Below, one piece after another: positions 19,666 through 27,224 of a DNA stretch of 52,609 nt. The notes under the pieces were generated by a model. It worked only from the letters and a program-made list of their open reading frames with translations. It had not been told where the DNA came from and ran no database searches. Source of the stretch: an uncultured Gemmiger sp. Its GTDB lineage: Bacteria; Bacillota; Clostridia; Oscillospirales; Ruminococcaceae. Where the stretch lies: positions 1 through 52,609 of the forward strand of contig CALXHN010000007.1 of assembly GCA_944388105.1 (NCBI GenBank), given 5' to 3'. Made by a program: the position numbers and the translations under genes. The first letter of the stretch is position 1; each line of letters starts with the position of its first letter.

Positions 19666-20289
19666 TCACGACATCTTCCGGGTTCCCGAAAGGATGTATT
19701 TCTCCTGGTCGGAAATGGCTGTATCCACATCAAACCAGGGGCTGAAAAGCTCGGCCAGCTCTGCGGCAGGCAGCATCCCCATGGACACGCGGGCCGCACG
19801 TCCGGCGTGATGCCGGTTGAGCTGGGCGATGCTCATGCTGTGCGCCACGGTCAGGCGTCCTCCCGGGCGCAGCCAGCCGGACAGGTCCCGGAGCAATCCG
19901 GCCGGATCGGCAAAATGGGGAAAGGCGTTGTAGACAACGCAGCAGTCATAATCACCGCTGCCCTGCAAAGCCTGGATATCGCTGCACATCACCCGGATGG
20001 GCGGCTGTGCCTTTTTCGCCGCGATTTTGGTCATTTCGGGGGAAATGTCCACGGCCAGCACATGGGCCGCCTGCCGCTGGCAGTAAAAGGGGAACAGAAC
20101 CCCGGTGCCGCAGGCTACATCCAGTACCCGCACACCGGGCTCAATGCCGGCTGCGTCCAGAATCAGGTTGATCTTGTCCCGGTCCACGACCAGGTCCCGG
20201 TCCCAGCCGGCAGCCAGCTCATCAAAAAAATGCACCACATCCTGCTTGTCAATAACCGCACAGTGCCGGTCCAGACATTGGAGATTCAT
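19666..20289 (-). CDS. SAM-dependent class I methyltransferase
   Basis: 207-residue Rossmann-fold methyltransferase. Motif I reads VLDVACGTGVLFPF (about residue 55-68), followed by an acidic strand end in VLAVDISPEM, and motif IV-like YDCCVVYNAFPHF. The N-terminus VHFFDELAAGWDRD resembles small-molecule methyltransferases of the UbiE/SAM-MT_11 type. AAAAGAGGTAG precedes the ATG. It lies 31 bases downstream of the GntR-type gene on the same strand, so they form an operon. The substrate is not predictable from sequence. Confidence 0.85.
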   Translation of the reverse strand: MNLQCLDRHCAVIDKQDVVHFFDELAAGWDRDLVVDRDKINLILDAAGIEPGVRVLDVACGTGVLFPFYCQRQAAHVLAVDISPEMTKIAAKKAQPPIRVMCSDIQALQGSGDYDCCVVYNAFPHFADPAGLLRDLSGWLRPGGRLTVAHSMSIAQLNRHHAGRAARVSMGMLPAAELAELFSPWFDVDTAISDQEKYILSGTRKMS

Positions 20290-20319: not shown

Positions 20320-21027
20320 TTACTCGGTATAAATTTGTTGATTGCCCGAAATGGCCTGCCCCAGATATTCGTCGATCCACCGGGCTGCGCCTTCCTTGTC
20401 CCGGGCACGGATGAGATCGTACAGTTTTTCGGTGTTGCGGCACAATGCCCCGATACCGTATAGCCGGCAGAACCGGGTCCACAGGGTAATGACCGGAGGC
20501 TTGAAGGAATAGTAGATCAGCGGCAGGATGCTGTTGCCGCTTACCAGGGCCAGTTCATGCTGGTATGTCCAGGCGGCTTCGGCAGCCTGTGCCGGGGTGG
20601 TGCATTCCGCAATGGCGGCCAGCAGCCTGCCCAGTCTGTCCAGGGCCTCGTCGGAAGCCCGGTCAATGGCGTTGGCCACCGCCAGATGTTCCAGCGCCAT
20701 GCGCACTTCCAGGATGGACTGGACCTCCTCCTTTCCCAGCACGCCGCCCTGATACTCCATGATGGCGATCAGGGTGCTCAGGTTTCCCCGGCGGCGGTAG
20801 TCCGCCACCACGGCGCCCTGCCGCGGCCGCACCTCCACAAAGCCCTGTTTGGCCAGTTCGGCCATGCCTCCGTTCACCACCGCACGGCTTACCTGCATTC
20901 GCTGGGCCAGCTCCCGCTCGGGGGGCAGCTGCGTCCCCACAGCCAGTTCTCCGGACAGAATCATCCGCTGCAATTGCTGGATGAACAGATCCTTCAGACT
21001 GGGCGCATTCAGCTTTTCAAATTCCAT
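20320..21027 (-). CDS. FadR-subfamily GntR transcriptional regulator
   Basis: 235-residue regulator. The N-terminal winged helix-turn-helix (about 10-75, with GTQLPPERELAQRMQVSR) is the GntR signature, and the all-helical C-terminal FCD ligand-binding domain has EVRMALEHLAVANAI and a later histidine in TYQHELALVSGN, as in metal-containing FCD domains. The start ATG has AGGAGGT 5 bases upstream. It is divergent from the hypB operon, with candidate operators in the 224-bp gap, and probably controls itself, the methyltransferase and perhaps the hyp operon. Confidence 0.92.
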   Translation of the reverse strand: MEFEKLNAPSLKDLFIQQLQRMILSGELAVGTQLPPERELAQRMQVSRAVVNGGMAELAKQGFVEVRPRQGAVVADYRRRGNLSTLIAIMEYQGGVLGKEEVQSILEVRMALEHLAVANAIDRASDEALDRLGRLLAAIAECTTPAQAAEAAWTYQHELALVSGNSILPLIYYSFKPPVITLWTRFCRLYGIGALCRNTEKLYDLIRARDKEGAARWIDEYLGQAISGNQQIYTE

Positions 21028-21065
21028 GGCGGACCTCCTCTCTGGGCTGTGGCTATACCACATAC

Positions 21066-21251: not shown

Positions 21252-21932
21252 GTGGAAAAGGTAAAGATTCTGGAGATCAAGCAGAGCGTGTTTGCCTCCA
21301 ACGACCGCGAAGCCGATGAGGTCCGCCGCCAGCTGAAGGAAAAAGGCGTGTTCCTGCTCAACCTCATGTCCTCGCCGGGGTCGGGCAAAACCACCACCCT
21401 GCGGCGTACCATCGAGGCGCTGAAGGATGAGATGCGCATCGGCGTCATGGAAGCGGACATTGACTCGGACGTGGACGCCAAAGCCATTGCCGAGACCGGT
21501 GCCAAGTCCATCCAGCTGCACACCGGCGGCATGTGCCACCTGGATGCCGATATGACCCGCCAGGGACTGGAAGGCCTGGGCCTGGAAGACGTGGACCTGG
21601 CCATTCTGGAAAACGTGGGCAACCTGGTCTGTCCGGCGGAGTTTGATACCGGCGCGGTCAAGAACGCCATGATCCTCTCGGTGCCGGAAGGCCATGACAA
21701 GCCCCTGAAGTATCCGCTGATGTTCACCGTCTGCGATGTGGTGCTGGTGAACAAGATCGACGTGATGCCCTACTTTGATTTCGATATGGAAAAATGCAAG
21801 GAATACATCCGCATGCGCAACCCTGAAGCCAAGGTCATTCCTATCTGTGCCCGCACCGGGGAGGGGATTGACCAGTGGGCCGACTGGCTGCGCACCCAGG
21901 TTGCGGCCTGGAAAAATCCGGACAAGCAGTAA
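21252..21932 (+). CDS. hypB: HypB-type nickel-insertion GTPase
   Basis: 226-residue SIMIBI-class GTPase. In known systems HypB, with HypA, delivers nickel to [NiFe]-hydrogenase or urease. The P-loop SSPGSGKTT is at about residues 40-48, the base-specificity NKID at 167-170. The G-domain metal site is complete: C95 and H96 in GGMCHLDA and C127 in GNLVCPAEFD. The histidine-rich N-terminus of some HypB proteins is absent. The start is GTG 21252 (AAAGGA upstream). It is the first gene of the four-gene operon with a flavoprotein and hypA; no hypC-F or hydrogenase gene is in the window. Confidence 0.93.
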   Translation: MEKVKILEIKQSVFASNDREADEVRRQLKEKGVFLLNLMSSPGSGKTTTLRRTIEALKDEMRIGVMEADIDSDVDAKAIAETGAKSIQLHTGGMCHLDADMTRQGLEGLGLEDVDLAILENVGNLVCPAEFDTGAVKNAMILSVPEGHDKPLKYPLMFTVCDVVLVNKIDVMPYFDFDMEKCKEYIRMRNPEAKVIPICARTGEGIDQWADWLRTQVAAWKNPDKQ

Positions 21933-21958
21933 GGACACTACACAGAAAGGAACCGACC

Positions 21959-24727
21959 ATGAGCCAGACCCATTTTCCTCTGGACGAGAGCAAGCTGCCC
22001 TTCAAGATTTCCAAGGACGAAAAGCCCCGGGAAAAGATCCTCAAACTGGGCCAGAAGATCACCGACCGCATCCCGGCCAAACTGCGTCCCCTCACCGCCG
22101 AAGACCCGGAGTACTGGGGTCTGGCGGGGCTCATCACCGATGAGATGGCGGATGTGGCCCTGAAGATGAAGGTCCGCAAACCCATGACCCTGCCCGAACT
22201 GGTCAAGGTCACCGGCAAATCCGCCGAGGAGCTGGAACCCCTTCTGTACCAGATGAGCTATGTGGGCCTGCTGGAATACAACTGGGAGAACGAGCGCCAT
22301 GAAAAGCAGTACGTGCTGCCCATGTTCGTACCCGGCAGTGCCGAGTTCTTCAACATGCAGAAGAGCCAGATCGAAAACAACCCCGAAGTCACCGCCTTCT
22401 TTGAGCGGATGACCTTCCTGCCGCTGGAACACATCACCGCCATGGTGCCGCCGGGAGGCGCCGGCATCGGCATGCATGTCATCCCGGTGGAAAAGGCCAT
22501 CGAGACCGAAAACCAGTCGGTGGACATCGAGCACATCTCCCACTGGCTGAAAAAGTACGATGGCAAATATGCGGCCAGTCCCTGTTCCTGCCGTATGTCC
22601 CGGGCCCGGATGGGGGAGGGCTGCGGCGACGACCCGGAGGACTGGTGCATCGGTGTGGGTGACATGGCCGACTACCTGGTGGAAACCAAAAAGGGCCACT
22701 ATGTGGACTACGACGAGGTCATGCGCATCCTGAAGCGGGCCGAGGACAACGGTTTTGTGCACCAGATCACCAACATCGACGGCGAAAACAAGATCTTTGC
22801 CATCTGCAACTGCAACGTGAACATCTGCAACGCCCTGCGCACCAGCCAGCTGTTCAACACCCCCAATATGAGCCGTTCCGCCTATGTGGCCCATGTCACC
22901 CCGGAAAACTGCGTGGCCTGCGGCCGCTGCGTGGAGTACTGCCCCGCCGGTGCGGTCAAGCTGGGCCAGAAGCTGTGCACCAGCCACGGGCCGGTGGAGT
23001 ATCCCCGCCAGGAACTGCCCGACAACGTGAAGTGGGGCCCGGAAAAGTGGGACATCGACTACCGGGACAACAACCGCATCAACTGCTACGACACCGGCAC
23101 CGCTCCCTGCAAGACGGCCTGCCCTGCCCACATTGCGGTGCAGGGGTATCTGAAGATGGCTGCCCAGGGCCGCTATACCGAAGCGCTGGCTCTCATCAAG
23201 CGGGAAAATCCCTTCCCGGCGGTGTGCGGCCGGGTGTGCAACCGCCGCTGTGAGGATGCCTGCACCCGCGGCACCGTGGACCAGGCGGTGGCCATTGATG
23301 AGGTGAAGAAGTTCATTGCCCAGAAGGACCTGGAAGCGGCCACCCGCTACATCCCGCCCATCAACCCGCCTTCCAACCGGGGCGGCTTCAGTGAGAAGGT
23401 CGCCATCATCGGCGCCGGTCCGGCGGGTCTGTCCTGCGCCTATTATCTGGCTGAAAAGGGCTACCATCCCACCGTGTTTGAAAAGAATCAGAAGCCCGGC
23501 GGCATGCTGACCTACGGCATCCCCTCCTACAAACTGGAAAAGGACGTGGTGGAAGCCGAGATCGACATCATCCGTCAGATGGGCGTGGAGATCCGCTGCG
23601 GCGTGGAAGTGGGCAAGGATGTGACCCTGGACGAGCTGCGTGCCCAGGGGTACAAGGCCTTCTATCTGGCCATCGGCTGCCAGGGCGGCCGCAAGGCCGG
23701 TGTCCCCGGTGAGGACGCCCCCAACGTGGTCACCGCTGTGGAGCTCCTCCATCGCGTGAACGAAGGGGAGAAGATCAATCTCAGCGGCCGCATTGTGGTG
23801 GTCGGCGGCGGCAACGTAGCCATCGACGTGGTGCGTTCCGGTCTGCGCTGCGGTGCTTCCTCGGCGGATATGTTCTGCCTGGAAGCCCGGGACCAGATGC
23901 CTGCCACACCCGGCGAGGTCGCCGAGGCGGAGGAAGAGGGCGCCAAGGTCCACTGCGGCTGGGGCCCCAAGGAGATTTTGACCGAGAACGGCAAGGCCAC
24001 GGCCGTGGTGTTCAAACGCTGCCTGTCGGTGTTTGATGCCGAAGGCCGCTTCAACCCCACTTATGATGACAACGACACCGTCACGGTGGAATGTGAGCAT
24101 GTGTTCCTGAGCATCGGCCAGAGCATCCAGTGGGGGAACCTGCTGGAAGGCAGCAAGGTGGAGCTGGGCCGGGGCGGCCGTGCTGTGGCTGACTCCCTGA
24201 CCTACCAGACCGCCCAGCCCGACGTGTTTGTGGGCGGCGACGTGTACACCGGTCCCAAGTTTGCCATCGACGCCATCGCCGCCGGCAAGGAAGGGGCTGT
24301 CTCCATCCATCGCTTTGTCCAGCCCAACACCAGCATGACCATCGGCCGCAACCGCCGCCAGTTCATCGAGCTGGACAAGACCGACCTGGCCCTGGAAAGC
24401 TACGATACCACCGCCCGTCAGGTGGCCGGCATGGCCCAGGATATCGACTATCACCGCTCCTTCCGGGACGGCCACCAGACCTTCACCGAGGAACAGGTCA
24501 AGAAGGAGACCTCCCGCTGCCTGGGCTGCGGCGCTTCGGTGGTGGACCCCAACAAGTGCATCGGCTGCGGCGTCTGCACCACCAAGTGCGAATTCGACGC
24601 CATCCACCTTTCCCGTGAACGCCCCGAGTGCAGCACCATGGTACGCAGCGAGGATAAATTCAAGGCCATCCTGCCTTATATGCTCAAGCGGGAATTCAGA
24701 ATCCGGTTCGGCAAGAAGGAAGACTGA
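21959..24727 (+). CDS. Large iron-sulfur flavoprotein with GltD-like oxidoreductase domain
   Basis: 922-residue cytoplasmic protein with no signal or TM segment. Residues about 50-110 look like a winged helix. A cysteine-rich module follows (C209/C211, C222, C230, then CNCNVNIC at 283-290). A [4Fe-4S] ferredoxin site CVACGRCVEYC is at 318-328. The middle and C-terminal parts resemble GltD, the NADPH-glutamate synthase small subunit: a Cys-rich N-domain (C384, C388, C423, C427, C431, C435), the FAD fold GAGPAG (485-490), NAD(P) fold GGGNVA (616-621), and the second FAD segment FVGGDVYTGP. A last [4Fe-4S] site CIGCGVCTTKC is at 867-877. It likely moves electrons between NAD(P)H and a partner; no GltB is adjacent. 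Fusion of all these parts, between hypB and hypA, is unusual. Confidence 0.88.
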   Translation: MSQTHFPLDESKLPFKISKDEKPREKILKLGQKITDRIPAKLRPLTAEDPEYWGLAGLITDEMADVALKMKVRKPMTLPELVKVTGKSAEELEPLLYQMSYVGLLEYNWENERHEKQYVLPMFVPGSAEFFNMQKSQIENNPEVTAFFERMTFLPLEHITAMVPPGGAGIGMHVIPVEKAIETENQSVDIEHISHWLKKYDGKYAASPCSCRMSRARMGEGCGDDPEDWCIGVGDMADYLVETKKGHYVDYDEVMRILKRAEDNGFVHQITNIDGENKIFAICNCNVNICNALRTSQLFNTPNMSRSAYVAHVTPENCVACGRCVEYCPAGAVKLGQKLCTSHGPVEYPRQELPDNVKWGPEKWDIDYRDNNRINCYDTGTAPCKTACPAHIAVQGYLKMAAQGRYTEALALIKRENPFPAVCGRVCNRRCEDACTRGTVDQAVAIDEVKKFIAQKDLEAATRYIPPINPPSNRGGFSEKVAIIGAGPAGLSCAYYLAEKGYHPTVFEKNQKPGGMLTYGIPSYKLEKDVVEAEIDIIRQMGVEIRCGVEVGKDVTLDELRAQGYKAFYLAIGCQGGRKAGVPGEDAPNVVTAVELLHRVNEGEKINLSGRIVVVGGGNVAIDVVRSGLRCGASSADMFCLEARDQMPATPGEVAEAEEEGAKVHCGWGPKEILTENGKATAVVFKRCLSVFDAEGRFNPTYDDNDTVTVECEHVFLSIGQSIQWGNLLEGSKVELGRGGRAVADSLTYQTAQPDVFVGGDVYTGPKFAIDAIAAGKEGAVSIHRFVQPNTSMTIGRNRRQFIELDKTDLALESYDTTARQVAGMAQDIDYHRSFRDGHQTFTEEQVKKETSRCLGCGASVVDPNKCIGCGVCTTKCEFDAIHLSRERPECSTMVRSEDKFKAILPYMLKREFRIRFGKKED

Positions 24728-24728
24728 G

Positions 24729-25121
24729 ATGCACGAACTGGGAATTGTCTTTCATATCATCCGCAGCGTGGAAGAAGTGGGCCGCCAGAACGGCGTCAAG
24801 CGGGTCAACGCGGTGACGCTGGAACTGGGGGAGGTCTCCGGCGTGCTGGAAGACTACCTTCAGGACTGCTGGAACTGGGCGGCGGCCAGATCCGATATGC
24901 TGCGCGGCGCCCGACTGCAGGTGGAGACCATCCCCGCCAAGACCCTTTGCGAGGATTGCGGCCTTGTGTACCCCACCGTGGCTCACGGCAGGACCTGCCC
25001 CGGATGCGGCAGCGGACATACGCATCTGATACAGGGCAACGAAACCATGATCCGGGATATTACAGTGCCCGAAGAGGAAGAAGCGGAATCGAAAGAAACT
25101 CCCTCCCCGGACACACTGTAA
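24729..25121 (+). CDS. hypA: HypA-type nickel metallochaperone
   Basis: 130-residue homologue of HypA/HybF, which passes nickel to hydrogenase or urease together with HypB. The nickel-binding N-terminus MHELGI is intact (His2, Glu3), and the structural zinc site has four cysteines (C74, C77, C90, C93 in CEDCG and CPGCG). The acidic C-terminal extension (EEEEAESKE) is not part of the core fold. It starts one base after the flavoprotein stop codon, so co-translation is likely, and is 33 bases before the membrane-protein gene. Confidence 0.93.
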   Translation: MHELGIVFHIIRSVEEVGRQNGVKRVNAVTLELGEVSGVLEDYLQDCWNWAAARSDMLRGARLQVETIPAKTLCEDCGLVYPTVAHGRTCPGCGSGHTHLIQGNETMIRDITVPEEEEAESKETPSPDTL

Positions 25122-25154
25122 GATAAAACGTTATTTTGAACGGAGGAATTTTGT

Positions 25155-26198
25155 ATGTTGTTTCAGATCTACGGCGAAAACGCCGGCTGGCAGCTGTTCG
25201 GATGGCTGCTGGTTTTTGTGGGGCTCATTCTTGTCAATGAGCTGGCCCGCCGTACCAAGCAGGGCGGCATCTTCTGCTTCCTGATTCTGCCTGCAGGCCT
25301 GACGGTCTACTTCATTGCGGTGGCTGTGGGAGCCTCTATGGGGGCTGAGTGGGCGCTGAATAACCCCACCTACCTGTACATGAACAGCTGGTTCCATTAT
25401 GCCAAGCTCTATGCCGCCACCATCGGCTGCATCGGCTTCATGATGCTCAAGTATAAGTGGGGCATCGGCAAGACCCACTGGTTCAAGGCCTTCCCCTTTG
25501 TCATTGTGGGCATCAACATCCTCATCGCCGTGGCCAGCGACTTCGAGTCCGGCATCCGGGGGGCCATGGCTCTGGCCGAAACCGGCAGCCGCTGGTGGCT
25601 GTCCAGCGAGAACGTCTGGGTTTACGGCGGCTGGTGGAACTGGGTCAACGGCATCGCCGGTATCCTGAATATCCTGTGCATGACCGGCTGGTGGGGCATC
25701 TATTCCTCCAAGAAACAGCAGGACATGCTCTGGCCGGATATGACCATCTTCTACATTGTCGCCTACGACCTGTGGAACTTTGAGTACACCTACAACAACC
25801 TGCCCACCCACGCCTGGTACTGCGGTCTGGCCCTGCTGCTGGCACCCACCTTTGCCAACGCCCTGTGGAACAAGGGCGGCTGGATCCAGAACCGCGCCAA
25901 CACCCTGGCCCTGTGGTGCATGTTTGCCCAGGTCTTCCCGCTGTTCCAGGATCAGGGCGTCTTTGCCACCATTCCCGTGCTGTATGTGGACGGCGTGATG
26001 GATCCGGCCACCCATCCCACGGCGGCCGACCCCACCATGCAGGGCGTCATTGCACTGCTGGCCCTGGCTGCCAATGTCATCGTGCTGGCCATCATTATCA
26101 AGCGCTCCATCGAGCAGAAGAAGAATCCCTACACCAACGAGATCTTCACCGATACCAGGGACTTCCAGCTGGCTATGGCACGCGCCGAAGAACAGTAA
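25155..26198 (+). CDS. Multi-span membrane protein of unknown function (DUF5692-like)
   Basis: 347-residue integral membrane protein with eight or nine hydrophobic segments (for example about residues 11-31, 39-59, and the last about 300-322) and an N-terminus outside a signal-peptide pattern. Loops are rich in Trp and Tyr (SRWWLSSENVWVYGGWWNW). Possible ligands of a cofactor include scattered His (SWFHYAK, KTHWFK, LPTHAWYC). I recall the annotation DUF5692 for similar proteins but could not check it. GGAGG lies 9 bases upstream of ATG. As last gene of the hypB operon, it is the likely membrane partner or transporter of that system. A role in nickel uptake or as membrane anchor for the flavoprotein is inference only. 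Confidence 0.8.
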   Translation: MLFQIYGENAGWQLFGWLLVFVGLILVNELARRTKQGGIFCFLILPAGLTVYFIAVAVGASMGAEWALNNPTYLYMNSWFHYAKLYAATIGCIGFMMLKYKWGIGKTHWFKAFPFVIVGINILIAVASDFESGIRGAMALAETGSRWWLSSENVWVYGGWWNWVNGIAGILNILCMTGWWGIYSSKKQQDMLWPDMTIFYIVAYDLWNFEYTYNNLPTHAWYCGLALLLAPTFANALWNKGGWIQNRANTLALWCMFAQVFPLFQDQGVFATIPVLYVDGVMDPATHPTAADPTMQGVIALLALAANVIVLAIIIKRSIEQKKNPYTNEIFTDTRDFQLAMARAEEQ

Positions 26199-26254: not shown

Positions 26255-26308
26255 CAAAAAAGAGAGATTGCCTTTCCCGGAAATGGGGGAGGCAATCTCT
26301 CTTCTTTT
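26255..26308. terminator. Bidirectional terminator between the hyp operon and the LysR gene
   Basis: AGAGAGATTGCC (26261-26272) pairs perfectly with GGCAATCTCTCT (26291-26302), flanked by A-run (26256-26260) and TCTTTTTT, so it can work on both strands. Confidence 0.92.
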
Positions 26309-26342: not shown

Positions 26343-27224
26343 TCAGGCTTTTTCCATATCCCGCAGCACATTGAGAAACCGCTCGGCGGCAGGGGAGAAG
26401 ATCTGGTATTTCTTCCATACAATGTACATGTCTGCCTGCCGCCTGGGTTCCAGCGGGCGAAAACACAGCGGGCTGTCGCCGGTCACATTGATGATGCCGT
26501 CCAGACACAGGGCGTATCCCATACCATCCTCCACCATCAGGGACCCGTTGTAAACCAGGTTGTAGGTGCCCACCACCTGCAGCTGACCGGCCGGTTCTCC
26601 GAACCATTCCTGCAGCCGGCTGGTTTTGTATATCTGCCGGGATACGATCAGCGGCTGTCCTTTCAGGTCGGACAAACGCAGCGCTGCTTTCTGTGCCAGA
26701 GGGCTGTCCCGGCGCATCAGCACACCCCAGGTGTCCTGGTAGGCCAGATGGATCACGTTATACCGGGACAGATCCACCGGCGCAAACAAAAGTCCGAAGT
26801 CAATGAGCCCTTTGTCCAGATCCTCCCGCACGTCGGTGGCATCGCCGCTGGAAATATGGATGCGGATGTCCGGATAGGATTCCTGCAGCTGTCGGGCCGC
26901 CCGGGTCAGGTAATGGACCCCCACCGTCTCACCGGCGCCAATGTACACCTCCCCGGAAACGGCCTCCTCCGTCTGGGCAAACTCCTGCTCGGTCTTCTGC
27001 ACCAGATCCAGGATCTCCTCGGCACGTTTGCGCAGCAGCATTCCCTCCGGGGTCAGGGTCACACTATGGCTACCGCGCACAAACAGTTGCTGGCCAAGCT
27101 CCTCTTCCAGATCGTGGATCTGGCGGGACAGGGTAGGCTGGGTGACATGCAGGGCGTTGGCCGCATTGGTGATGTTGCCTTCCCGGGCAATGGTCAAAAA
27201 GTACCGCAGTACCCGCAATTCCAT
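26343..27224 (-). CDS. LysR-type transcriptional regulator
   Basis: 293-residue regulator. The N-terminal winged helix-turn-helix has MELRVLRYFLTIAREGNI and ALHVTQPTLSRQIHDLE (residues 1-60), a linker helix follows, and the C-terminal part is the two-lobed co-inducer domain (about 90-290). The start ATG has AGGAGGGT 6 bases upstream. It is divergent from the operon of the small protein, DUF3737, iron alcohol dehydrogenase and cyclophilin-like lipoprotein. A nested inverted repeat in the gap makes that operon its most likely target. The effector is unknown; control in response to aldehydes or redox stress is a guess from the neighbours. Confidence 0.93.
   Translation of the reverse strand: MELRVLRYFLTIAREGNITNAANALHVTQPTLSRQIHDLEEELGQQLFVRGSHSVTLTPEGMLLRKRAEEILDLVQKTEQEFAQTEEAVSGEVYIGAGETVGVHYLTRAARQLQESYPDIRIHISSGDATDVREDLDKGLIDFGLLFAPVDLSRYNVIHLAYQDTWGVLMRRDSPLAQKAALRLSDLKGQPLIVSRQIYKTSRLQEWFGEPAGQLQVVGTYNLVYNGSLMVEDGMGYALCLDGIINVTGDSPLCFRPLEPRRQADMYIVWKKYQIFSPAAERFLNVLRDMEKA

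Follow-up and report, generated by a model that had tools for sequence, protein, structure and literature searches.

An operon for an IsrA-like iron-sulfur flavoprotein with its own HypA/HypB pair in an uncultured Gemmiger: a candidate metal client besides hydrogenase and urease

Introduction

Known clients of the metallochaperones HypA and HypB include hydrogenase and urease. A further candidate has already been put forward. IsrA of Acetobacterium wieringae ISORED-2 was proposed as a putative isoprene reductase (Kronen 2023, PMC10134865), and the passages of that report considered here describe a 901-aa protein encoded in an isoprene-induced five-gene operon that also codes for HypB, two HypA and a ferredoxin, in a genome noted to be without a [NiFe]-hydrogenase. 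Among 988 IsrA homologs, the neighbour frequencies given were 0.73 for HypA, 0.56 for HypB, 0.21 for TetR and 0.4 for DUF5692. A six-cysteine site of IsrA was suggested as a possible nickel site, and the same site was also likened to a P-cluster-like or double-cubane Fe-S site (PMC10134865). This was the only open-access paper that our search found on DUF5692 or the putative isoprene reductase; most subscription journals lay outside its scope.

We analysed a window of 52,609 nucleotides from an uncultured Gemmiger sp., which is contig C7 (CALXHN010000007.1) of a 2.37 Mb, 170-contig genome that is 94% complete. A first-pass annotation made from the sequence alone had described hypB, a large flavoprotein, hypA and a membrane protein in one operon, and had proposed that the flavoprotein or the membrane protein may be, or may serve, an unrecognised nickel-dependent redox system.

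Results

The four genes are tightly packed on the forward strand, with gaps of 26, 1 and 33 bases, in agreement with the operon first described, and Pfam names all four products. hypB (21252..21932, GTG start) encodes a GTPase metallochaperone (TIGR00073, 252.4 bits against a cut-off of 121.2) and is followed by a 922-aa iron-sulfur flavoprotein (21959..24727; Pyr_redox_2, Fer4_20 and Fer4), conserved in alignment. hypA, for a nickel metallochaperone (24729..25121, ATG at 24729; PF01155, 103.9 bits against 28.9), precedes the last gene, for a DUF5692 membrane protein (25155..26198; PF18948, 468.2 bits against 27) for which NCBIfam offered no model. Both chaperones keep their metal ligands, as had been claimed: C95, H96 and C127 in HypB, and His2 with two CxxC pairs in HypA, all read from the sequence. 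HypA scored below the NCBIfam hydrogenase-maturation equivalog TIGR00100 (72.3 against a cut-off of 88.1).

Divergent from the operon lies a GntR/FCD regulator gene (20320..21033, reverse strand; PF00392, 56.6 bits; PF07729, 53.4 bits). Its product is a probable local regulator that we take to be FadR-type, and its cluster was found at 38 of the 101 loci holding a flavoprotein-cluster protein. After the operon, a terminator-like hairpin of 20 pairs is followed by a T run (26260..26303, forward strand), with terminator-like sites in the region near chance (7 vs 5.7 in shuffles). Immediately 3' of the operon is a LysR-type regulator, identified by reading (26343-27224, reverse strand), with relatives at five other flavoprotein loci in varying positions. 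A SAM methyltransferase (19666-20289, reverse strand) has relatives of 50-57% identity at five other flavoprotein loci (L101, L113, L124, L138 and L140) and one of 41% identity beside a [NiFe]-hydrogenase in L125; these methyltransferases possibly share a metal-related function.

GltD/NAD(P)-binding oxidoreductase models covered residues 371-885 of the flavoprotein, the best being PRK12771.1 at 444.4 bits against a cut-off of 516. None of the 25 NCBIfam models listed gave a score over its cut-off; for the GltD-type models the scores were 267.7 against 471.75 (TIGR01316) and 275.3 against 482.95 (TIGR01318). Beyond its N-module, Pfam recognised Fer4_20, the FAD/NAD core and a C-terminal 4Fe-4S site. 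The FAD/NAD(P) and Fer4_20 core is common to GltD, the small subunit of NADPH-dependent glutamate synthase, and to NfnB. Unlike these, the window protein has an N-module of about 370 residues, a C-terminal ferredoxin site and accompanying metal chaperones, and it stays below GltD cut-offs.

The N-module had been described as an extra winged-helix/Cys module, and both parts were recovered. Residues of about 25-108 (22031..22282, forward strand) resemble a winged helix, with a partial Foldseek match to 2d1h (probability 0.99, E 0.07); a profile search matched 2d1h too (E 0.0067), and no match to this part reached E 0.001. The Cys module (22583..22828, forward strand), the proposed metal site, contains C209, C211, C230, C283, C285 and C290, which are invariant among the 82 N-modules aligned, and C222, which one of the 82 does not have. 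C318, C321, C324, C328 and C340 were likewise found in all 82. The predicted N-module model had a pLDDT of 82.7, with values below 50 in the ferredoxin stretch 318-329, and Foldseek returned nothing for it at E<=0.001. Among the 60 of 129 solved-structure profile matches listed, which fell on ferredoxin-type stretches and one winged helix, none covered the Cys module by sequence. One locus, L167, has two different flavoprotein copies on opposite strands (best identities 57% and 73%), the divergent copy being without C222.

The flavoprotein is of the IsrA kind, a kinship that rests on architecture and on the spacing of cysteine motifs. According to the passages of PMC10134865 considered, both proteins are about 900 aa long and have an N-module with two CxC motifs and then a 4Fe-4S site, together with a dihydropyrimidine-dehydrogenase-like [4Fe-4S] domain, a FAD/NAD domain and a C-terminal 4Fe-4S site. 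The CxC motifs are spaced by 72 in both (180/182 and 254/256 in IsrA, 209/211 and 283/285 here), and the next 4Fe-4S site, at 289 in IsrA and C318 here, is displaced by the same 29 residues as the CxC motifs. With HypA and HypB adjacent in both operons and a GltD-like core in the protein, the window flavoprotein corresponds to the clade 9 type of that paper. The isr operon lacks DUF5692 but includes a second HypA and a ferredoxin that aligns to IsrA in its N-terminal part, whereas the window operon has DUF5692, one HypA and no IsrA-like ferredoxin; it is therefore not an isr operon in the strict sense. The hosts differ as well, a [NiFe]-hydrogenase being present here and noted as absent in A. 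wieringae (PMC10134865).

This [NiFe]-hydrogenase lies on contigs C83 and C67 together with hypA, hypB, hypC, hypD, hypE and hypF. On C83 (L005 1-9164), antiporter-like, NuoH-, NuoB- and NuoD-like and ferredoxin subunits were found with hypA and the start of hypB, and a FeoB-like gene (by reading) comes after this set. C67 (L006 6393-11493) holds the end of hypB, then hypF, hypC (by reading), hypD and hypE. For the large subunit on C83, PF00374 gave 49.9 bits across 70 of 508 positions, and the best-scoring NCBIfam model was NuoD, under its cut-off (313 vs 360). The subunit has one CxxC near each end, which fits the group-4 class to which we presume the enzyme belongs. The absence of a hydrogenase and of hypC-F, as first noted, is thus true within the window only and not genome-wide. 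Because the hydrogenase carries its own hyp genes, the window HypA and HypB are a second set, 30% (HypA) and 41-43% (HypB) identical to the hydrogenase pair. The first-pass annotation had considered a hydrogenase elsewhere that needs the window pair; the hydrogenase exists, but with its own hypA-hypB it has no need for that pair.

Distribution was assessed in 197 genomes of the same family, with the flavoprotein called by an N-module match at E <1e-20; other N-module matches, all weaker than 1e-8 and mainly to the ferredoxin stretch, were left out. The flavoprotein was present in 18 genomes, HypA over cut-off in 23, PF00374 in 10 and DUF5692 in 14, and all 14 DUF5692 genomes hold the flavoprotein. 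Flavoprotein and HypA co-occurred: 17 of the 18 flavoprotein genomes also have HypA (Fisher p 1e-18, uncorrected for kinship), and 15 of the 18 gave no match to the [NiFe]-hydrogenase large subunit (PF00374). Nine of these 15 genomes are more than 90% complete and six are 73-89% complete. The association between flavoprotein and hydrogenase was weakly positive (3/18 vs 7/179, p 0.05). In G043, a flavoprotein genome in which no HypA was found, the contig ends 377 bases past the gene, and the 7 kb upstream hold no hypB. Three PF00374 genomes, G022, G114 and G185, have no HypA over cut-off; the large-subunit matches of G114 and G185 are strong.

Profile searches of the 15 genomes with flavoprotein and no hydrogenase led us to reject urease, CODH and HypD-dependent enzymes as chaperone clients there. 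HypD was found in none, and CODH in none over the cut-off of 478 (five matches at 20-37 bits). Urease gave no convincing match in these 15: G024 reached 23.5 bits against a cut-off of 23 over 37 positions, and G137 remained below the cut-off. We also searched 49 of the 77 named relatives, whose loci were picked for holding the flavoprotein. The large subunit was absent in 44 of the 49 (genome completeness not stated) and found in five, including both Butyrivibrio genomes.

The number of HypA genes followed that of the candidate clients. Counts were made by hand in 22 HypA-positive genomes, after G116 had been dropped from the 23; its match (36.6 bits) sits, by reading, in a rubrerythrin-like frame of L127 and was judged false. 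HypA gene number equalled hydrogenases plus flavoproteins in 20 of these 22 genomes, one flavoprotein being counted for each of G057 and G123, where contigs are split. G196 has one extra partial HypA. The match rises to 21 of 22 if a stand-alone Cys-module protein in G041 is included. With G116 set aside, G041 is the sole HypA-positive genome without hydrogenase or flavoprotein. Directly upstream of its hypA-hypB lies a 295-residue stand-alone frame (L126 5415-6299) with the flavoprotein-type Cys pattern, found by inspecting the flank of its HypA and not by a genome-wide scan. Profile comparison gave a probability of 96.3 and an E of 1.7e-9, partly via the ferredoxin part. When the loci were scanned for the Cys pattern, 99 matches fell in flavoproteins (duplicates included) and the one other was this protein. 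Its neighbours in L126 are genes for a D-lactate-dehydrogenase-like FAD enzyme, an ETF subunit and 2-hydroxyacyl-CoA dehydratase. This arrangement suggests that the Cys module is the part served by HypA/HypB.

A tree was built from 87 HypAs (114 columns, with many weakly supported forks), the hydrogenase HypA of the window genome not being among them; here the window HypA grouped with flavoprotein-linked HypAs. The hydrogenase HypAs of two same-genus genomes and the HypA of G060 stood apart (98/90 support). G008 and G127 each have three flavoprotein loci, three HypAs and no hydrogenase match, and in both the HypAs occupy three places in the tree: the window type, the divergent L118-L120 type and a pair of their own (L104, L107). 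HypA placement follows the type of flavoprotein, not the genome. The window-type locus of each of these genomes has no hypB alongside. G060 has a hydrogenase and gave no flavoprotein match, yet its HypB shares 62% identity with that of the window; HypB type alone is therefore no marker of client. The window pair belongs to the same families as the HypA/HypB of [NiFe]-hydrogenase operons and keeps the metal ligands, but the window HypA diverges from the hydrogenase HypAs tested in the tree and misses the NCBIfam cut-off, suggesting a different client.

Neighbours within about 7 kb were recorded at 73 flavoprotein loci with enough flank, three duplicates having been removed first. hypA was present at 70, hypB at 65, DUF5692 at 48 and all three at 42, so that the co-occurrence of the four genes in relatives exceeds chance. 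By these counts DUF5692 is accessory, and the constant member is the flavoprotein. hypA and hypB occurred without DUF5692 at 23 of the 73 loci, at least three of which (L103, L106 and L120) carry a distant DUF5692 relative instead. At three loci (L149, L152 and L193), flavoprotein and DUF5692 genes lie side by side without hypA/hypB within about 7 kb.

The model of the DUF5692 protein was confident, helical and membrane-type (pLDDT 86.8), and the family has conserved polar residues. Foldseek found no solved fold for it at E<=0.001, and sequence search gave one match at E 0.23. In L114 (3744-8297, genome G165), a distant DUF5692 relative (profile probability 84), a carotenoid-isomerase/phytoene-desaturase-like gene, a 2Fe-2S reductase-like gene and a DUF5692-like gene lie in a row, and this 16-kb stretch yielded no hypA, hypB or flavoprotein. 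Similar enzymes adjoin divergent flavoproteins in L104, L107 and L120. The four enzymes tested, from L104 and L120, fell below NCBIfam cut-offs, so the carotenoid-isomerase-like and reductase-like names are loose. This company suggests that DUF5692 may handle a membrane-soluble unsaturated substrate.

The relatives found beside carotenoid-isomerase-like enzymes provide a lead to a lipid substrate. Named relatives among the best 80 of 453 include Treponema bryantii strain B25, T. zioleckii, T. saccharophilum, Butyrivibrio, a Roseburia MAG and Blautia hansenii; the closest named locus in this set was that of Gemmiger gallinarum (L132), with 98% identity over the N-module. The passages of PMC6826361 and PMC9533493 considered refer to work from 1971 on how a rumen Treponema, strain B25, hydrogenates fatty acids, and PMC6826361 states that Treponema can hydrogenate C18:2 to trans-11 C18:1. 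Judging from the name, that strain would be T. bryantii B25. The passages of PMC10134865 add that IsrA was induced while a conjugated diene was being reduced and that homologs in Acetobacterium woodii and A. fimetarium neighbour oleate hydratase. No CLA reductase gene is named in the passages of PMC12254105, PMC13365329 and PMC4786556. No lipid gene was recognised beside the window operon, so biohydrogenation stays a lead. We had also presumed steroid 21-dehydroxylation to be a possible link for the flavoprotein family; the literature search and the paper passage available gave it no support.

Discussion

The window operon is real, conserved and of a kind already proposed. Gene patterns in relatives suggest that the flavoprotein itself receives the metal, and this client reading, well supported by gene association, is strengthened here but already in print for the IsrA family in the passages of PMC10134865 considered. 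New in this analysis are the matching of gene counts, the stand-alone Cys-module protein by hypA-hypB, the pairing of DUF5692-like with carotenoid-isomerase-like genes and the occurrence in rumen biohydrogenators.

The genes, their domains, the invariant cysteines, the co-occurrence and the gene-number match favour an explanation that we hold to be probable: HypB and HypA load a metal, likely nickel, into the Cys module of an IsrA-like, NAD(P)H-driven alkene reductase. For the metal, the route of the electrons, the reaction, its substrate and the part played by DUF5692 we infer the following. The operon would make and mature one IsrA-like enzyme, with the GTPase HypB and HypA inserting the metal, most likely nickel, into the cysteine-rich N-module. 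NAD(P)H would reduce the FAD, and electrons would pass along canonical [4Fe-4S] clusters until they reach the Cys-module metal site, where the C=C bond of a hydrophobic, probably conjugated, substrate would be reduced. As a partner in the membrane, DUF5692 may present a membrane-soluble substrate or take it up.

The chaperones could instead be spares that serve the [NiFe]-hydrogenase of this genome, with the flavoprotein a mere neighbour. The genome does hold such a hydrogenase with HypC-F, and within the family the flavoprotein has a weak tendency to occur with hydrogenase, but the hydrogenase locus has its own hypA-hypB, 15 of 18 family genomes and 44 of 49 others with the flavoprotein gave no large subunit, and the hydrogenase HypAs tested form a separate branch; on distribution, gene count and HypA tree we rejected this explanation, which is very improbable. 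It is also quite unlikely that the chaperones serve DUF5692, or that DUF5692 is a nickel permease that feeds them. Its position as last gene of the operon, its retention at 48 of 73 loci and its conserved polar residues would suit such a role, yet hypA and hypB occur without it at 23 of 73 loci (at least three with a distant relative), three loci combine it with the flavoprotein and no nearby hyp genes, and in L114 DUF5692-like genes keep company with other redox genes and with no hypA, hypB or flavoprotein in 16 kb. The original proposal of flavoprotein or membrane protein as the nickel redox system stands for the flavoprotein, and the membrane-protein alternative is disfavoured by the loci without DUF5692 and by L114.

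Two further possibilities are somewhat more plausible, though we consider both doubtful. HypA and HypB might insert another metal (iron, cobalt or zinc) or aid Fe-S assembly in the Cys module, with no nickel involved. The likening of the IsrA site to P-cluster-like or double-cubane Fe-S centres would agree with this, but the nickel-binding residues given for the two families are retained in both proteins, as judged from the motifs in the passages of PMC10134865, and the idea is rather unlikely. The flavoprotein might also be an NfnB/GltD-like electron-transfer or bifurcating enzyme and not an alkene reductase, as its match to PRK12771.1 and other GltD/NAD(P)-binding models over residues 371-885 could imply. 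However, it reaches the cut-off of none of the 25 models listed, the operon genes include no GltB-like or NfnA-like partner, and GltD has no N-module with metal chaperones; we give this alternative a minor chance.

On the reading of the flavoprotein as an IsrA-like alkene reductase, a bolder extension can be entertained, although we regard it as speculative and on balance unlikely: the Cys module might define a widespread, unrecognised class of Ni-Fe-S enzymes with dedicated HypA/HypB, and the DUF5692-linked branch might be a reductase of conjugated polyunsaturated fatty acids, acting in biohydrogenation in bacteria of the gut and rumen. If the flavoprotein is the client, HypA/HypB would gain a further client type besides hydrogenase and urease, and finding a hypA-hypB pair in a genome should not be taken as evidence of a [NiFe]-hydrogenase. 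A nickel-dependent alkene reductase, if borne out, would represent a new class of enzyme, carried by many anaerobes of the gut and rumen, and would provide a concrete candidate gene for the hydrogenation of unsaturated lipids under anaerobic conditions, which shapes the fat of ruminants.
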